DNA of 64,000 nucleotides from Alloascoidea africana. Taxonomy: Eukaryota > Ascomycota > Alloascoideomycetes > Alloascoideales > Alloascoideaceae. The stretch is from assembly GCA_030581615.1 (NCBI GenBank), contig JAKTTT010000005.1, positions 310,001 to 374,000 on the forward strand, in the 5' to 3' direction. The notes below the pieces were generated by a model. It was not told where the DNA came from and ran no database searches. It was given only the letters and a program-made list of their open reading frames with translations. Below, in pieces: positions 3,201 through 47,020 of this stretch. The position numbers were made by a program, and so were the translations under genes. Numbering within the stretch: position 1 is the first letter of the stretch; each line of letters starts with the position of its first letter.

Positions 3201-4651
3201 GGCAAGCAAAGCTAGCATATTGTCAACTTGGGAGTCGGTTGTTTAAAAAACCCCATACCAAAAGTTATACAAAAGCCATCCAACTGTATGTTGAATTATC
3301 CATTATTCTTGAAAGAATCATATTAGTGTCATGTTTTCAGAAATTATGGATCAGGAGATATCGGTATTATCACTGGATTGGCTCTTTTTTTCTAGTGTTT
3401 AAGCCTGTTTATACTCAATTGTCATGTTGCTGACACAAATTGCAATAACCTATCATTTTCCCTCCGTTCTAAACGTTCAAGTAGGCGTTTTATTCACTTT
3501 TGGTTTGCCGTATCCCAATTTTGACCACAACTTTCGCTTTAATCGGGTACTAGATCAATTTAACAACTTTTTAGCATTAAAAAGAGCATTACTTAGAAGG
3601 CAGTGATAAAATTCATCCTGATTGAAGAGTTCTTTGTAGTTTTTGCATTAAATGACTTATTAATGAGTATCATGCTTCATCTCATAATACAACCCCTGAG
3701 ATCAAATAGCCTTGCTTGAATTTATAAATCTTTTTGATCTATGGCCTTACAAGACTATACCCAAGAGCTTTACAAATAATGGCTGGAAAGAGTGCAAAAA
3801 TCTCAAAAAGAAAAATCGAGTTGACACATTTTCAATAGTTTTCTTCGTCAAAATACAACTAGGTTTTAACATCTCGTTGTTTGCTTTCAAATATTTACCC
3901 AGTAAAAGCCATGCTTAAATTGCTTTGTAATGGGTTGGAAGCAATTATGTTTCGCTCACGTTGACCTATCCTTTTTACGCCTTCGTTTAATGATCTATCG
4001 TTGCCGTGATGTCTGGAGAAAAGGTACCAAGGTTATACACATTATATTATTCGACATGTACTAAAAGTTAATATTGTGTGCCGACCGATTTGTGCTCACG
4101 GTGGTTGAAGTATCAATAATTATTCTTCGACTCGATGCACTTGGTGCCAGAGCAGTGTGGGCACTGCAGAAATAAAAGTTCACCCAACATTCTGAAAAAA
4201 TAATTTTATCATTCGTCTGAAATTCTCGAGAGCTGTCCTGAATTCCCCTGCAGTGCAGCATTCAATCGCCAGATTATATTCTAACGCTCAATTACGATAC
4301 GAGATTGAACAAAAAGAAAGTCTGGTCAACCGCCTACTAAATAGAAATCCACTTTAAGGATTCGTGTCTTTTTCCCCCATATGGAATCCATTTATTTCTT
4401 TATTCGGTAACCTGATCTTTTTCAAAACATGGTTGCAAGCCTTATTCTTTGATGAAAAATCAATCACGCATATTCTTATCCTCGAGGAGTATTTAACAAA
4501 TTCAACTGCCACATCTGCTTTTCTTCTTCCAGAAGATAATTCGACTCCATACCTCTCCCTCTCTTGTTGATAGATTGCCTTGTTCAATCATTTTTTGTAT
4601 TCATTTATTTTATCTTTTTTTTCATTTTACTGCTTTTATATTTTTAAACAT
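253..4651. other. 4.4-kb AT-rich stretch without a recognisable gene
   Basis: Many short open frames occur on both strands, the longest about 131 codons at 1825-2220 (+). None shows a family motif, a convincing start context or a partner exon, and homopolymer runs of A and T are frequent. No tRNA, tandem array or paired long repeat was seen. It may be degenerate sequence behind the surface-protein gene. Confidence 0.5.
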
Positions 4652-6463
4652 ATGAGAATACCAGGTCTTGAGACCCTGCCTGAGGTTGTTGAAAAACTGA
4701 GGGTTAAAAGCAGGTATGATTCACCGGATATTTGACACCAATGAATTTTATGCTAATTTGCTTATTCTTGATAGTGGCGATTATAAAACTACAAGCAAAC
4801 TTATAAACAGCGATGTGGTGCCGCTTCCTCCCAAACGACGGACTTGGAATGCTTTATCTTTTTTTGGATTTTGGAACGTGGATAAGTGAGTAGTCTCGAG
4901 ATCACACAATAATGTAAAGAGCTAACATGTATGTTTTACTTAGCTTTAATGTTGGGACATGGTCAATTGGATCTTCCTTGCTTTCTCTTGGATTAAATGT
5001 TAGTCAAACTATGGGAATAATCATTGTTGGACGACTCCTCACTGCTGTATTGTGCCTTTTCAACCAGCACTCAGGATCAAAATGGCATATTGGATACACA
5101 GTTACCCAACGACAAGTTTTTGGTGTTATAGGCTCAAACATAACAATATGTCTGAGAATTTTGCTTTCAGTTGTTTGGTATGGAGCTCAAGCTTGGCTGG
5201 GCGGACGCTTGATGACAACAATCTTTTCGTCTTGGAGTTACAGTTACCTGCATATGGAAAATACTCTGGAATCCAGTGTGCATATGTCAACAAGAGAATT
5301 GATTGGATTTCTAGCATTCCACATTTTGTCGTTTCCCCTGCTGGTAAGAAATTTAGAATGGCACGCGTAGCATATTGCATACTAACACCAACATATTCTA
5401 GTTAATGAAACCTGAAAAGGTCAGCAAGCTGTTATTATTCAGCAACTTGATTGGGTGTACTTCTATGGTCGCTATAGCGTCTTGGGCAGGATATGTTTCA
5501 GATGATACGGGGCCAATAATGAATAAATCCATGGACGAATTCTCGGCTTCTCAACTTGCTTGGACTTGGCTGTATGGAATCACTTCAGTTTACGGCAGCG
5601 CCTCTTCAGGATTGGTCAATGGTGTTGATTATACACGATATGCCCGAAAGCCTAGTGATCCATATTATGGGACCTTTGTATCTTATGTGATTCTTGGGTC
5701 AATTGTTCCATTTATGGGAATCATATCCACATCTTCTTTGCTTGGAAAGTACAATAAATCATTCTGGAATCCTGTTGATATTCTCGATTTCTGGTTAGAA
5801 TCAAGCTATAGTGCTGGAAACAGAGCTGCAGCTTTTTTCGTTGCTCTGGGGTTGCTTGGAGGCCAAATGGGGTTGAATGTTGCTGGCAATGGTTATGCTG
5901 GAGGCATAGATCTTGCTGGACTTCTTCCGAAATGGTTTAACTTACGAAGAGGGGCGGTTCTTATAGCGGTTTTATCTTGGTGCGTTCAACCTTGGAACTT
6001 TTACAATACCGACAGCATGTTTGTTACAGTTATGGGCTGCTTCTCCATTTTTATGTCGCCATTGATTGGAATTATGCTTTGTGACTTTTACATCATTCGC
6101 AAACGAATGCTCAAGCTTAGCGACCTTTATACATTTGATTCCAATGGTATTTACTATTATTACCATGGATTTAATCCAAGAGCAATTGTTGTGTGGTTCA
6201 GTGTTTGCTCACTAGCAATACCAGGGCTAATTCATAACGTTGAAGAAAGCATCTACATTACGAAGGGAATGGAAAACTATTATTGTGGCAATTCAATTTT
6301 TGGATTATCTATAACAATGATATTGTATTATGCTTGCCATCTGATTTGGCCAATTAAAGGAGTAGGGGAAATAGATGAAGTGGATGTTTTTGGAACTTTT
6401 ACAGAAAAGGAAGCAACAAAGCTTGGCATGGTTCCTCATGAGAGTCAAGTCTCCAGAGCTTGA
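4652..6463 (+). CDS. NCS1-family permease (uracil/allantoin/thiamine-type), four exons
   Basis: Exons 4652-4713, 4775-4885, 4944-5343 and 5402-6463 join to 544 residues. The introns (61, 58 and 58 nt) start GTATGA, GTGAGT and GTAAGA, carry GCTAAT, GCTAAC or ACTAAC branch sites and end in TAG. The joins keep frame through the family core: PPKRRTWNALSFFGFW is followed by VDNFNVGTWSIGSSLLSLG, and later come GAQAWLGG and NGVDYTRYARKP. The NCS1 (Fur4/Dal4/Thi7/Nrt1) family imports nucleobases, allantoin, thiamine or related compounds with protons through about 12 membrane helices of the plasma membrane. The substrate cannot be read from the sequence. The N-terminal cytosolic part is short (about 57 residues). 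The start is the first ATG in exon 1, 62 nt before the first donor. Confidence 0.9.
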
Positions 6464-7354
6464 AACAAACTACATCAGATGAATTTCGGTATTCTTCTGA
6501 GACTGAAGAAAAACTAATGAGATATCTATGCTTAGAGCATAAGATCAGGGAGAACCAAAGCACCCCTTAAAGTGCTTCTGCTAAAAGTGGATTTTTTTAA
6601 TGATTTTTTGCTTTAGATTTTGTTTTATGACTTCGTATATACAGGTACAAACACTTATACATAAAGCTGTGGGTTGTTAAATAACTGGGTTTTTTTTTAT
6701 GTTGACGATAGTATTAAACAAGAGAGGATAAAGATACATTAATTATGGTTGATTTTTAACTTTGCTCATTTGATGGCAATAACACGAATAGCTTCTTCTG
6801 GAAGGAAACTTTGGCAAATTTATTCCGCTTTTTACTCGAATGATGCGCTTTACTAATTGGTCAAAAGGCCAGCTAGTATTTTTCTCAATGCAGTAATAAC
6901 TCGAGTTTTTTAAATCTTAATTAGGAAAGCTTGGTTTCCGGGAACGGAAAGGAGATCTGAGTAAACCGAGCTCTGCGGAACTATGTTTAGCCGCACTATT
7001 GGTTAACCTGTCCATCGGCTTGAAGGGCCCATCAAAAAGTTTCTATTTTCCGGCCGTCGTATTTGCTTTTTACACATGGAAAAAGCCTGCATTAATGAAC
7101 AATCATATTTAAACAAATATTGCGTGGGCATGATGAATTTGAATGCCTTGTGTACAAGGAAACAAAAAGCGAATTGGATAAGATGGGAGTGTTTATCACA
7201 ATCATAATGATCTTGGAGTGGTATTGTAATTGATCATTTCAGACATCTTCATTTAAAATATAGAAAAAAATAAATACTTAGAAATCTACGTATCATTCAT
7301 CTGTCATTCAGTTGTTCTGTTCACATGCCGCAGATTCAAAATAATCTAACCATT
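6464..7354. other. Intergenic, convergent 3' ends
   Basis: Separates the permease from the alcohol dehydrogenase on the opposite strand. AT-rich, with T runs that may serve 3' end formation. No gene or repeat was seen. Confidence 0.5.
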
Positions 7355-32954: not shown

Positions 32955-32995
32955 GGCTGTTGGCTGTTGGCTGTTGGCTGTTGGCTGTTGGCTGT
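32955..32995. repeat. Heptanucleotide tandem repeat GGCTGTT, about 6 copies
   Basis: Five exact units and a partial sixth. Related in period and GGCT core to the array at 48391-48446. Confidence 0.9.
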
Positions 32996-35404
32996 CCCGG
33001 AACAAGCTTTAATGTGTATCAACTGCTCAGTCTGTTGAGTCTTGAGTGGCTAACCTTCCACGAGGCTTGAATACTATTCCAATTGATTCAACGTGTGGTT
33101 CATTTTTCACAGCACTACAAAGATAAACAATTGTACCTTCCTCCTAGGCAAAATTTCCTTCTATTCTGTCCCCGCCGTGGAGCAAAAGTAAAGAGAAATG
33201 TTTAAAGTTAGTCAGAAGAAATCCAAGCGATGTTTCCGTGTTCTCATATTCTAGTGAAAATCTTAATAGACCTATAGAATAGTAGGGAGGGTAATCTTTG
33301 ACGCCCTTCACTGTTAACTAGGTAGATGAACACTGAACCATCAACATGGACTTGACTGTGGGGTGAATAGAAAGCACGTTGCTCTCACAAGAGTGTATAG
33401 AATGCAACCGCTTCGACAGAAAGCATGATTAGGATTGCACATTTATCTTCCTACCTCTTCAGCAGTCTGATGGTAAAAGATGTGTACCATTTTTTGTCAA
33501 AAACCGTAACCACGCCTCTGCCATTTATTCTTCTTGCTTTTTAGTATGTAATGGCATTTCGAACAGGTGAAAAAGCAAGCCTATTTAGAACGGTTGAAAT
33601 CAGGAATTCAAATCTTATCTGTCTGGCACTAAGTGACACTTTAGATCCTATTTAAGCCAATAGAATCATTCATGCTTTCTCCAAGTAGAACAAGAGAAAT
33701 TTCAAGGAAAGAAAATTTCGGGTAAATGTTTAAAGTCATTATATTAAAATGAACTTGGTTGATAGACTACTCTCTTTCTGTCTTTTCGGCAAACCAATGC
33801 TGTAATATTTTCTTTTGTTCTTAGTCCCTTGAATAGGAGAAAAAAACAAAAATCTGTTGGATGTGGTGTTATTAAATAACAATTTGCTCATGTCCAGTAA
33901 AAGGACTATAAAGCAGATCAGTAAACACTTCCATCAGTACTTTACAATTTCATATTTTGTTGACTCCTCCCCAGACAAGCAAGGGTCCGAAGCCAGTCCC
34001 TTTAGTTGAACACCCTGAACGAAACGAGTAGCATTAACTTGTTGTATCAAACGATTTGCATTTGTTAAACCAGAAATATTGGCGGTGTTTAAAAGAATAT
34101 TTAATATCAGACGTCTACGGTGTCAAGAAAAGAAAGTTTCTACTTTGAAGATGAAAAATCGGAAGAACAAAAGCTTCATTGTGTCGTTTCCATCTTTTCT
34201 AGAATTTGATGTATAACACTCCATTAATACAGAAAATTGATCCAAACCATCACAGAAAATATGTTGGGAAGCATCAGTCCTAACCCTCATCAAGTTTTGG
34301 TTAGTTCTTCAAGGTCTTTTTCGAGCATGGATACTTCTTGACTTTCCGATTCAGTTTTGCAAGGTAACCCGATTTGGTAAATATTTTATTATTATTTCAT
34401 AGATTTCTAAAACATGCCTTCCAGCAGTGATGAATCTTTATTTTTCTGGTAGTCGGTAAATTTGCTCAAGGAATGCAAACTAGCCACCTTGAGGCATTCT
34501 GGTGGCTAACTGTTCTTCCGAAAAGGCTTCGTCATTGTCAAGTACTTTCATAGTATTTACCCTGCAATAGAAGTAGTCTCGCGTAGTTTGGCCAAACTGG
34601 TAGCTAATCTGGACCAAAATACAGCTCAAAGTATGAGAACCAAAATCAAATATTTTTCATTCTGGGGTAGGGCTGTCTACTATTGTGACATCTTAAAGAA
34701 CACCCGATGTAATGCAGACTTGCTCTTGTCAAAACTGCCTAAAAGGCCTTTCTGCATGTAAGCATTACCTGCAGGATATCTGAAAGCTGAAAGGAAATTA
34801 AGGGATTACATTTAGAGTCAGGTATTTTCATTGCACAGATTTCTAGAAGATTTGGACCCAACTCTTGTTTAATAAAACAGAACTTTGGTTCTGATGCATA
34901 CTTTTCCCCCAAACTCGGCACATCTTTTCTTTTTTATTCTTGTCATTAGACAAGTGCCGCTCACGCTATTGTAAAAAAACAGAAAAGAAATAAATGCTCA
35001 TTCAAAGCTGTTTTCTATTGACAAGTCTTTGATGATCCAGTCGGGCGTTGCGCTTCAAGTATAGATTCTTCTCTAATTTGCTCGTTTATCCCTTCTCTGT
35101 CACAATGGACCATCTTACGATACAAACACGGCTCTGTATAATGTGACAATCAAGTAGGAGCATTTATTTTGATAGAATGTTTTTTTGGGAAATTGATTCC
35201 TTTGTAATTTCTCACCTTGGTCAAATCATATTCTTACCGCTGGGTTTCTGTAGCTTTGGAAAATCACAAGACATCAATATAAAAATGATGATTTCCCTAT
35301 CTATTTATGAAACTATTCACTGCTCTTAATCAATATAGCAATTAATACTTAACTTCTTTCTTTAACGCCAAGCTTATTTGTTTACTCTTTTGCTAACAAA
35401 CATC

Positions 35405-36340
35405 ATGATTTGCCAATTCGCTGCCCCTCTCGCTCTTCTTGCCCTAGGAAAACTAATTGCGGCAGAAGAAACCACTACATGTCCTGAAGGCCAATACTGG
35501 ATGACCATGCCAAACGGAATGGCACATTGTATGGATAAGCCAACCAGTGAAGCTGGGAAGGCAACCACTACCTGCCCGGATGGCCAGTATTGGATGACAA
35601 TGCCAAATGGTATGGCTCATTGTATGAACAAACCAACAACTTCGGAATCCTCTACAGCGGAGGAGGCAACCACTACCTGTCCTGAAGGTCAATATTGGAT
35701 GACCATGCCAAACGGAATGGCACATTGTATGAATAAGCCAACCAGTTCAGAATCTTCCACTACTGAGGTTGAGGATGCTACCACTACCTGCCCGGATGGC
35801 CAGTATTGGATGACAATGCCAAATGGTATGGCTCATTGTATGAACAAACCAACAACTTCGGAATCCTCTACAGCGGAGGAGGCAACCACTACCTGTCCCG
35901 AAGGTCAATACTGGATGACAATGCCAAATGGAATGGCCCACTGTATGAACAAGCCCTCTAGTTCAGCTGTTTCTTCTGCTACAAGTGAAGCTGCTACGAG
36001 TTCTTGTCCAGAAGGCCAGTACTGGATGACAATGAAAAATGGAATGGCACATTGTATGAATAAGCCAACGAGTTCGGCCGCCTCTAGTGAAGCTGCAACC
36101 AGTTCCTGTCCTGAAGGTCAATACTGGATGACCATGAAAAATGGAATGGCCCACTGTATGAACAAGCCAACTAGTTCTGAAACTCTCGCTACATCTACTA
36201 AATCTGGAGAACAATCTGCATCAGCCTCTGAGTCGGCTCCCACTTCAGTAGAAGTGTCAAATAGCTTGAGCAAGCTATCTTTTGAGAATTCTTTGTTTTC
36301 TCTCGTTGCTATTGCTCTGGCTATTGGATCCCTGATCTAA
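35405..36340 (+). CDS. Secreted GPI-type wall protein with seven Cys/Met/His repeats
   Basis: 311 residues from the ATG at 35405 (upstream codons of the frame have no ATG). A signal peptide is at 1 to about 19 (MICQFAAPLALLALGKLIAA). Seven tandem units follow, each with a nearly invariant core CPxGQYWMTM then xNGMAHCMNKP, separated by Ser/Thr/Glu linkers. Each core has 2 Cys, 4 Met, 1 His, 1 Trp and 1 Tyr. After the repeats comes a Ser-rich stalk and a C-terminal hydrophobic segment (SLFSLVAIALAIGSLI) typical of GPI attachment. The family is not recognised. The spacing M-x-M...M-x-H-C-M is reminiscent of copper-binding motifs, but pairwise disulfides in a small wall module are equally possible. 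Linkers would be O-mannosylated, linking it to the PMT gene nearby. Confidence 0.85.
   Translation: MICQFAAPLALLALGKLIAAEETTTCPEGQYWMTMPNGMAHCMDKPTSEAGKATTTCPDGQYWMTMPNGMAHCMNKPTTSESSTAEEATTTCPEGQYWMTMPNGMAHCMNKPTSSESSTTEVEDATTTCPDGQYWMTMPNGMAHCMNKPTTSESSTAEEATTTCPEGQYWMTMPNGMAHCMNKPSSSAVSSATSEAATSSCPEGQYWMTMKNGMAHCMNKPTSSAASSEAATSSCPEGQYWMTMKNGMAHCMNKPTSSETLATSTKSGEQSASASESAPTSVEVSNSLSKLSFENSLFSLVAIALAIGSLI
35471..36180 (+). repeat. Seven-unit in-frame tandem array of about 100-111 bp
   Basis: Units of about 31-37 codons. Units 5-7 differ most; units 6 and 7 have Lys in place of Pro in the core (MTMKNG). Positions 35564-35682 and 35780-35898 are identical over 119 bp at a 216-bp spacing, evidence of recent two-unit duplication or gene conversion. 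Confidence 0.9.
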
Positions 36341-46359: not shown

Positions 46360-47020
46360 TGCTAGAGAATGGTGAGTATTTGAGCAGATTGGGAAGCGCT
46401 ACAGCAAGCCTTGGAGAGCGATACGAGAAGGAACAGAGAGGAGGGAGATGGAGAGTGCAAGGAGAGAAAGGCAGCAGAAGAAGGAGGGCTTTTTATTTTT
46501 GTTTTATTTTTGGATTCGCTGTCCCGCCGCCATTTCGGGCCCGGAGAGAATCGAGAGACTCGCGAGAATCGAGAGAAGCGGCAGCGGGCTGGGCTCTGGC
46601 TTCATTTCGGAGGCCTGGCACGGGCTTGGAGGCACTACGAAGGGGCCCAGGAGAGCCACAGCCCGTGCGGAAGGGCCTGGCGTTGGAGTTCCATAGGGTG
46701 AATGCCGGGGTTGGCGGCTCTCGGGTTCAGCCATTTAGTGCTCTCAGCCAGGCTGGTCCAGTCGTCGGTCGGGCTGGGGGCCGACGGCAGAGAGCTGGCG
46801 ATCTCGATCTAGCGATCTAGAAATGTAGAGGTCTAGGAATGTAGAGATCTAGAGATCGTGCGATCTAGAGATCGTCACAGATTAGTCTTGCTGGGATTGC
46901 ATAGGATCGGGCTAAGCGTGAAATGAGAAAAAGGCAAGCTCTAATTGAATAAGCGGCCCGCAGCACTATGGAATAAAAAGCATACAAATCATTGATCTTT
47001 GGAACATCTATAAAAAAAAG
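46360..47020. other. GC-rich GFA1 leader/promoter region
   Basis: Unlike its AT-rich surroundings, 46440-46800 is GC-rich and open in several frames on both strands, with no motifs. Such multi-frame openness follows from composition. It ends in a cluster of GATCTAG units. Confidence 0.5.
46802..46874. repeat. Short-repeat cluster built on GATCTAG / AGAGATC
   Basis: Four GATCTAG units within about 70 bp (46806, 46814, 46846, 46862), two of them followed directly by AGATC, plus two close variants (GTCTAGGAATGTAGAG). Confidence 0.8.

Follow-up and report, generated by a model that had tools for sequence, protein, structure and literature searches.

The passage of reduced copper through a copper-binding polysaccharide wall to the Ctr transporters is an unsettled question. 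Ctr proteins carry extracellular Mets motifs, in which MxM with a nearby His has a Cu(I) role, the mature N-terminus of Cbi1/Bim1, a protein of Cryptococcus and other fungi, begins with a His (the His brace), and CusF is a single beta-barrel domain that reads M-T-M and has W44 as its cation-pi partner. According to excerpts of PMC9258870, the GPI-anchored Cbi1/Bim1 of Cryptococcus binds and releases copper; it is highly induced in copper limitation, interacts with Ctr1 and works through it, by a mechanism that is called unknown there. The metal ligands of CusF, a bacterial periplasmic Cu(I)/Ag(I) chaperone, include M47, M49 and H36 according to an excerpt of PMC6235853, together with a cation-pi contact.

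We compared with these systems a repeat protein encoded in a 64-kb window, the whole stretch of DNA that was analysed (contig C5, positions 310001-374000), of a genome of 23.18 Mb in 138 contigs. Its gene content suggests a yeast-like fungus, with fungal-type domains in window genes, among them PMT with MIR and the sterol-sensing domain, and with Ctr, copper-fist and BIM1-like families outside the window. The coding features are as follows, in window coordinates.

35405..36340, + strand: gene of the putative seven-unit wall protein (311 aa), an uninterrupted ORF
35405..35464, + strand: signal-peptide-like N-terminus, aa 1-20, recognised by eye
35480..35533, + strand: core of unit 1, CPEGQYWMTMPNGMAHCM
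35573..35626, + strand: core of unit 2
35678..35731, + strand: core of unit 3, modelled as a beta-hairpin
35789..35842, + strand: core of unit 4, codons as in unit 2, part of the two-unit model
35894..35947, + strand: core of unit 5, part of the two-unit model
36005..36058, + strand: core of unit 6, K at position 11
36107..36160, + strand: core of unit 7, K at position 11
36293..36337, + strand: hydrophobic GPI-type C-terminal tail LFSLVAIALAIGSLI, ending GSLI, recognised by eye

A putatively secreted protein with seven near-invariant units

The units begin at residues 26, 57, 92, 129, 164, 201 and 235, with a spacing of 31-37 residues, and Tandem Repeats Finder reported periods of 102-111 and 216 for the array in the gene. 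Each unit contains an 18-residue core, C1-P-[ED]-G-Q-Y6-W7-M8-T-M10-[PK]-N-G-M14-A-H16-C17-M18, with two Cys, four Met and one each of His, Trp and Tyr, in which only positions 3 (E/D) and 11 (P/K) vary among the seven. Inside the cores lie 28 Met, the only other one being the initiator, all seven His, all seven Trp, all seven Tyr and 14 Cys, with one further Cys in the signal-peptide-like start. Ser and Thr make up 50% of the 115 linker residues counted, and after unit 7 come a stretch rich in Ser, Thr and Glu and then the hydrophobic tail. The ORF and the unit alignment agree with the initial annotation, which had described a seven-repeat protein with a near-invariant core of two Cys, four Met, one His and aromatic residues, and the signal peptide and GPI-type tail that it had named are matched by ends of these kinds. 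The protein would presumably be located in the wall, and for brevity we speak of wall genes and wall promoters.

Over 22 codons, the 21 unit pairs show 0-11 synonymous codon differences and 0-2 amino-acid differences per pair. Since silent changes between units outnumber replacements, the array is not a mere recent copy-paste product; some copying between units is nevertheless recent, because units 2 and 4 have no difference over the 22 codons compared. The other units have had time for silent sites to diverge, with their residues retained.

A paralogue of 120 aa on contig C65 (L007:1423-1785, equal to L022:4423-4785) has a signal-like start and a single unit, CPSGQYWMTMDGGMEHCM, after which a stem rich in Ser and Ala leads to a tail that likewise ends in GSLI, the ends being assigned by eye. 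Its unit is identical to the seven-unit core at 14 of 18 positions: all nine Cys, Tyr, Trp, Met and His positions are kept, and among the remaining nine, five are the same and four changed. When a DNA pattern for GMxHCM was run over the whole genome, the eight exact matches were the seven units and the C65 unit, and no third family member was obtained either by that pattern or by genome-wide protein searches at the sensitivity used.

Comparison with described copper proteins and databases

Like Cbi1/Bim1, the wall protein is Ser-rich and has a copper-starvation-type promoter element (see below); from its signal- and GPI-like ends, recognised by eye in both family members, it would also be secreted and of GPI type, and it would likewise catch copper for Ctr transporters. 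It differs in having no BIM1/LPMO-like domain (PF20238) and in being built of many small Met/His hairpins, where Cbi1/Bim1 has one domain. PF20238 was absent from the Pfam matches of the whole protein, of its seven units and of the C65 paralogue, and the protein would read EETTTC after the likely signal cleavage (placed by eye), with no N-terminal His; we therefore reject membership of the Cbi1/Bim1 family on both counts. The core shares with Ctr N-termini an MxM with a nearby His, and its gene shares a promoter element with four of seven Ctr genes; its Met, however, would sit in a Cys-closed hairpin and not in a flexible tail, and the Ctr domain (PF04145) was absent from the Pfam matches of the seven-unit protein, the seven Ctr loci of the genome lying on other contigs. 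By sequence, every core holds a CusF-type set of MxM, His and Trp (W7-M8-T9-M10 and H16). CusF showed no relation in a profile search of PDB sequences, and the likeness would be one of ligand chemistry rather than of kinship, convergent at best. The units also resemble metallothioneins in being small, repeated and rich in soft-metal ligands; in this comparison the wall protein would be secreted, its two Cys per unit, 16 apart, are probably disulfide-bonded, and metal would be bound by Met and His.

The whole protein gave four Pfam matches over cut-off, Hyd_WA, TPR_WDR11, Tlde1_dom and IL8, with best stretches of 11-61 residues. We read these as repeat build-up, because the seven single units stayed below cut-off (at most 15.2 bits for MVL and 14.1 for Hyd_WA) and the C65 paralogue had no Pfam match up to E 1; membership of the four families, supported by neither, was rejected. 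The mannan-binding lectin repeat MVL (PF12151) was also rejected, its scores of 13.2-15.2 bits (E 0.02-0.09) in five of the seven units and 12.2 bits in the whole protein all being under the Pfam cut-off of 25. PDB sequences yielded no meaningful chain match, the profile search giving one match, a proteasome subunit, and no credible relative was found in the viral and prokaryote collections. A literature search by the repeat's peptide words returned no paper, topic searches listed none on such a protein, and in passages of PMC9040751 it was not found under the terms used. The family had been called unfamiliar, and in these searches no over-cut-off Pfam match stands in a single unit. Provisionally, we regard the Cys-flanked Met/His/Trp hairpin repeat as new relative to Pfam, the PDB, the viral and prokaryote collections and this literature; wall-anchored copper capture as a job is already known, and it is the repeat module itself that was not found in the searched sources.

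By Pfam, the genes next to the wall gene encode an AMP-binding enzyme, an aminotransferase, a PMT O-mannosyltransferase with MIR (two genes downstream), a SIS-domain protein, an acetyltransferase, an OPT transporter, an ABC transporter and a protein kinase. Farther off in the window are a purine/uracil-type permease, an iron-type alcohol dehydrogenase, a thiolase, a tryptophan-pathway enzyme and a sterol-sensing-domain protein. The C65 paralogue has RRN3 and sugar transporter genes beside it, and none of the 15 neighbouring ORFs scanned beside the two wall genes is a copper gene.

The unit is predicted to form a beta-hairpin

With the six other units as alignment, AlphaFold2 modelled unit 3 as a beta-hairpin whose strands span core positions 5-9 and 15-19 (mean pLDDT 75, 89 over model residues 11-20, pTM 0.32). 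Units 4-5, modelled together with six rows, gave this hairpin in both units (mean pLDDT 67, pTM 0.28) and a linker partly below pLDDT 50, with a beads-on-a-string look. Confidence is middling in these models, whose alignments of 6-7 near-identical rows offer the predictor little. The two strands would pair most simply with i+j=24. In this register, one face would hold Y6, M8, M10, M14, H16 and M18, the opposite one W7, T9, A15 and C17, the faces being derived from the strand ranges and not from side-chain coordinates. The ligand clustering that the initial annotation had hoped to find in a model is borne out to the extent that this register would bring Met8, Met10, Met14, His16 and Met18 together. 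Its alternative of a disulfide-stapled module may well hold too and would then describe the scaffold without competing with metal binding, the two Cys probably being bonded.

Foldseek returned nothing significant among the best 50 of 96 matches (best E 1.6), the top weak ones being small disulfide-rich hairpins from granulin, the HER2 extracellular region and follistatin, and VIA-align gave generic small hairpins only, none of them significant. Unlike granulin and EGF-like hairpins, which it does not match significantly, the wall unit has one Cys pair only. Such weak matches suit a metal-free structural, adhesive or sugar-binding wall protein, whose stapled hairpins with a hydrophobic Met/Tyr/Trp face would build stalks, self-associate or contact sugars, and so do the sub-threshold MVL matches and the nearby PMT gene, of a family that serves secreted proteins in general. 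We consider this unlikely, as it leaves unexplained both the fixation of Met and His rather than Leu, Ile or Val in all eight units and the copper-type elements in both promoters, and the C65 paralogue shows no MVL match up to E 1.

Mac1-type elements lie upstream of both wall genes

TTTGCKCR is a degenerate form of the Mac1 element. Its variant TTTGCTCR was recognised by reading the upstream DNA first, and was then tested. Upstream of the seven-unit gene the following sites are found, with distances from the ATG.

35077..35084, + strand: Mac1-type element TTTGCTCG at -328, in the context CTAATTTGCTCG
34992..35000, + strand: AAATGCTCA at -413, which fits the F. oxysporum Mac1 ChIP consensus
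34461..34468, + strand: Mac1-type element TTTGCTCA at -944, in the context TAAATTTGCTCA
33883..33890, + strand: Mac1-type element TTTGCTCA at -1522

In an excerpt of PMC11563359, TTTGCTCA is described as the Mac1 copper element for S. cerevisiae and C. albicans. The C65 paralogue has TTTGCTCR at -183, the sole full element of its promoter, so that both wall genes carry this form less than 350 bp from the ATG. In the window as a whole TTTGCKCR occurs at chance frequency (10 sites found, 10.35 expected), and three of the ten sites lie upstream of the wall gene, all on its strand.

Taken together, the 1-kb promoters of the two wall genes contain three TTTGCTCR sites where 0.197 were expected (Poisson P 0.0011), a modest excess for the core alone. 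For the extended form WWATTTGCTCR, three were found against 0.0114 expected, and the resulting P of 2.4e-7 is optimistic because the extension had been defined from the pooled sites, those of the wall genes among them. Dinucleotide shuffles gave an expectation of 0.015 and 0.004 extended sites in the two promoters; taken alone, the C65 promoter had its one TTTGCKCR site matched by shuffles in 20% of cases. Genome-wide, TTTGCTCR occurs 2284 times and WWATTTGCTCR 132 times, against 105 for a reversed control, and most single WWATTTGCTCR occurrences are therefore attributable to chance.

The Mac1 ChIP consensus of F. oxysporum, used as [AGT][ACT]NTGCTCA within 500 bp after an excerpt of PMC11563359, was found in 2/2 wall promoters, 6/7 Ctr promoters and 2/35 background promoters (Fisher P 0.009 for wall and 3.6e-5 for Ctr versus background). 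Bare TGCTCA was less sharp, with 5/35 background promoters and a wall P of 0.032. As background served the 500 bp before ORFs of at least 200 aa, some of which are possibly exon and not gene starts, with the Ctr genes, the wall genes, the C18 ferric reductase and two stretches fetched for their sites left out. A weight matrix built from eight sites of Ctr, copper-fist and BIM1 genes, the wall genes being left out, scored the wall promoters at 15.18 and 12.86 and the best of the 35 background promoters at 11.32. Over 127 pieces of 500 bp from the window, the top two were both upstream of the wall gene; six reached 12.86, the score of the C65 promoter, and four of these six lie elsewhere than upstream of the wall gene.

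Ace1 (the motif type used for copper-excess sites), Aft, GATA, PacC, Yap1, Crz1, Rlm1, STRE and Zap1 motifs showed no excess in the two wall promoters, and a Yap1-type site was absent from both 1-kb stretches. This last result bears on a Met redox buffer in the wall, in which Met would absorb oxidants and be recycled. Four Met per 18 residues and a presumed surface location would suit it; an invariant His, an invariant Trp and a fixed spacing are not called for, and, the Yap1-type site being missing too, we find it scarcely credible.

The element also precedes some copper uptake genes

Elsewhere in the genome we located seven loci for Ctr proteins, 15 for ferric reductases, four for multicopper oxidases and six for copper-fist proteins, a copper/iron uptake set that we take to be large for a 23-Mb fungal genome. 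TTTGCTCR occurs within 500 bp upstream of 4/7 Ctr genes versus 1/35 background promoters, or 3/37 when the C18 reductase and the two site-chosen stretches are included. In the tandem Ctr pair of C59 it lies at -163 of one gene and at -383, -151 and -125 of the other, in C18 at -269, together with TTTGCGCA at -290, and in C33 at -173; no TTTGCKCR was found in the stretch examined upstream of the C16, C49 and C77 Ctr genes. For C33 and C16, the start codon used possibly begins an exon and is not the true start. The C59 pair (C59:95000-104900, ORFs 4651-5325 and 5968-6654) has a Trp/Cys-rich first transmembrane region and is presumably Ctr3-like; it is adjoined by an ORF with a long poly-Ser stem, which looks to us like an aspartyl protease.

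On C18 (about 367-369 kb), a Ctr gene with a Met/His-rich start and a ferric-reductase gene diverge from a common promoter with two inverted copper elements. This arrangement is like that of F. oxysporum ctr3/fre9, a divergent pair with a shared promoter (excerpt of PMC11563359). With 0.6-1.7 kb examined, TTTGCKCR was found upstream of three of the 15 ferric-reductase loci (C18, C43 and C82) and not of the other 12, and upstream of none of the four multicopper oxidases. On C22 (288500-291900), the stretch between genes for a multicopper oxidase and an elongation-factor-like protein contains two WWATTTGCTCR sites 38 bp apart.

Copper-fist loci carry the element at -100 on C15 and about 1 kb upstream on C8, that is, in one of six within 500 bp. 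The C15 gene (131455-131571), which starts MILVDGEKYSCIQCIRGHRSSSC and has an RGRP motif, we take to be Mac1/Cuf1-like, and the Mac1-type element at -100 suggests that it is autoregulated.

A genome search for BIM1-like proteins (PF20238) gave a single match, on C30 (88600-91900; gene 89750-88998, - strand, 250 aa). The protein reads ...FAHFS, with a likely mature N-terminal His, and has a Ser-rich stem, an HHHHDEG stretch and a GPI-like tail. Its gene carries an extended Mac1-type element at -131 on the same strand; as a prospective check, this site was already in the earlier list of WWATTTGCTCR occurrences (100 of the 132 listed).

These associations bear on a shield against copper excess or silver, which would sequester surplus Cu(I) and so protect the cell without feeding it, a role that the ligand anatomy suits equally well. 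The element alone leaves the sign of the response, uptake or excess, unfixed, because Cryptococcus Cuf1 is one factor for both copper excess and starvation responses (excerpt of PMC9258870). The genes that share the element (Ctr, one divergent ferric reductase and the BIM1-like gene) all belong to uptake, and Ace1-type sites do not exceed chance in either wall promoter, so that we regard a shield as quite improbable. Among a store, a relay and a shield, the promoter evidence on the seven-unit protein favours uptake.

A candidate Cu(I)-capturing protein of the wall

It is quite likely that both wall genes belong to the copper regulon and, if they do, Cu(I) binding by their products is itself likely. 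On balance, and without strong conviction, we favour the reading that the seven-unit protein is a GPI-anchored, Cu(I)-capturing wall protein of the copper-acquisition regulon. The metal binding proposed by the initial annotation gains from the copper-type elements in both promoters and from the one-face register, with binding itself staying putative; copper is preferred to a generic metal or a redox buffer because of these same two lines of evidence. The co-occurrence with copper/iron uptake genes proposed there took the form of a shared promoter element, and physical clustering was not seen among the scanned neighbours.

Each unit would fold into a small beta-hairpin that a disulfide between Cys1 and Cys17 probably closes, with Met8, Met10, Met14, His16 and Met18 forming a Cu(I) site on one face. 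Under copper scarcity, surface ferric/cupric reductases would make Cu(I), which the seven sites on flexible Ser/Thr linkers could catch and keep reduced near the membrane, to be handed to Ctr-type transporters. More tentatively, and with doubt outweighing belief, the protein may represent an undescribed class of wall Cu(I) relay, in which strings of Cys-stapled Met/His/Trp hairpins act beside the BIM1-like protein, the reductases and Ctr as a multivalent copper-catching layer whose hairpin number could be adjusted by repeat expansion.

The copper evidence here is regulatory, and would also fit a wall protein that is induced by copper starvation and binds no copper, for example one altering the wall so that chitin holds less of it; a link between copper homeostasis and the wall is known in Cryptococcus (excerpt of PMC9258870). 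We think this very unlikely, since the soft-metal ligands were kept in the diverged paralogue while four of the nine other core positions changed. If Cu(I) capture is the correct reading, a second, unrelated wall protein with the same element would suggest that a copper-capture layer in the wall is a wider strategy, and the unit would offer a compact tag for Cu(I)/Ag(I) binding that can be genetically encoded. With 18 residues, it is small enough for direct synthesis and titration.

Two other short tandem arrays were observed in the window, a perfect heptamer array, GGCTGTT x 5.9, at 32955-32995, in the intergenic stretch that separates the wall-protein gene from that of the AMP-binding enzyme, and a degenerate octamer array, GATCTAGA, at 46806-46873.
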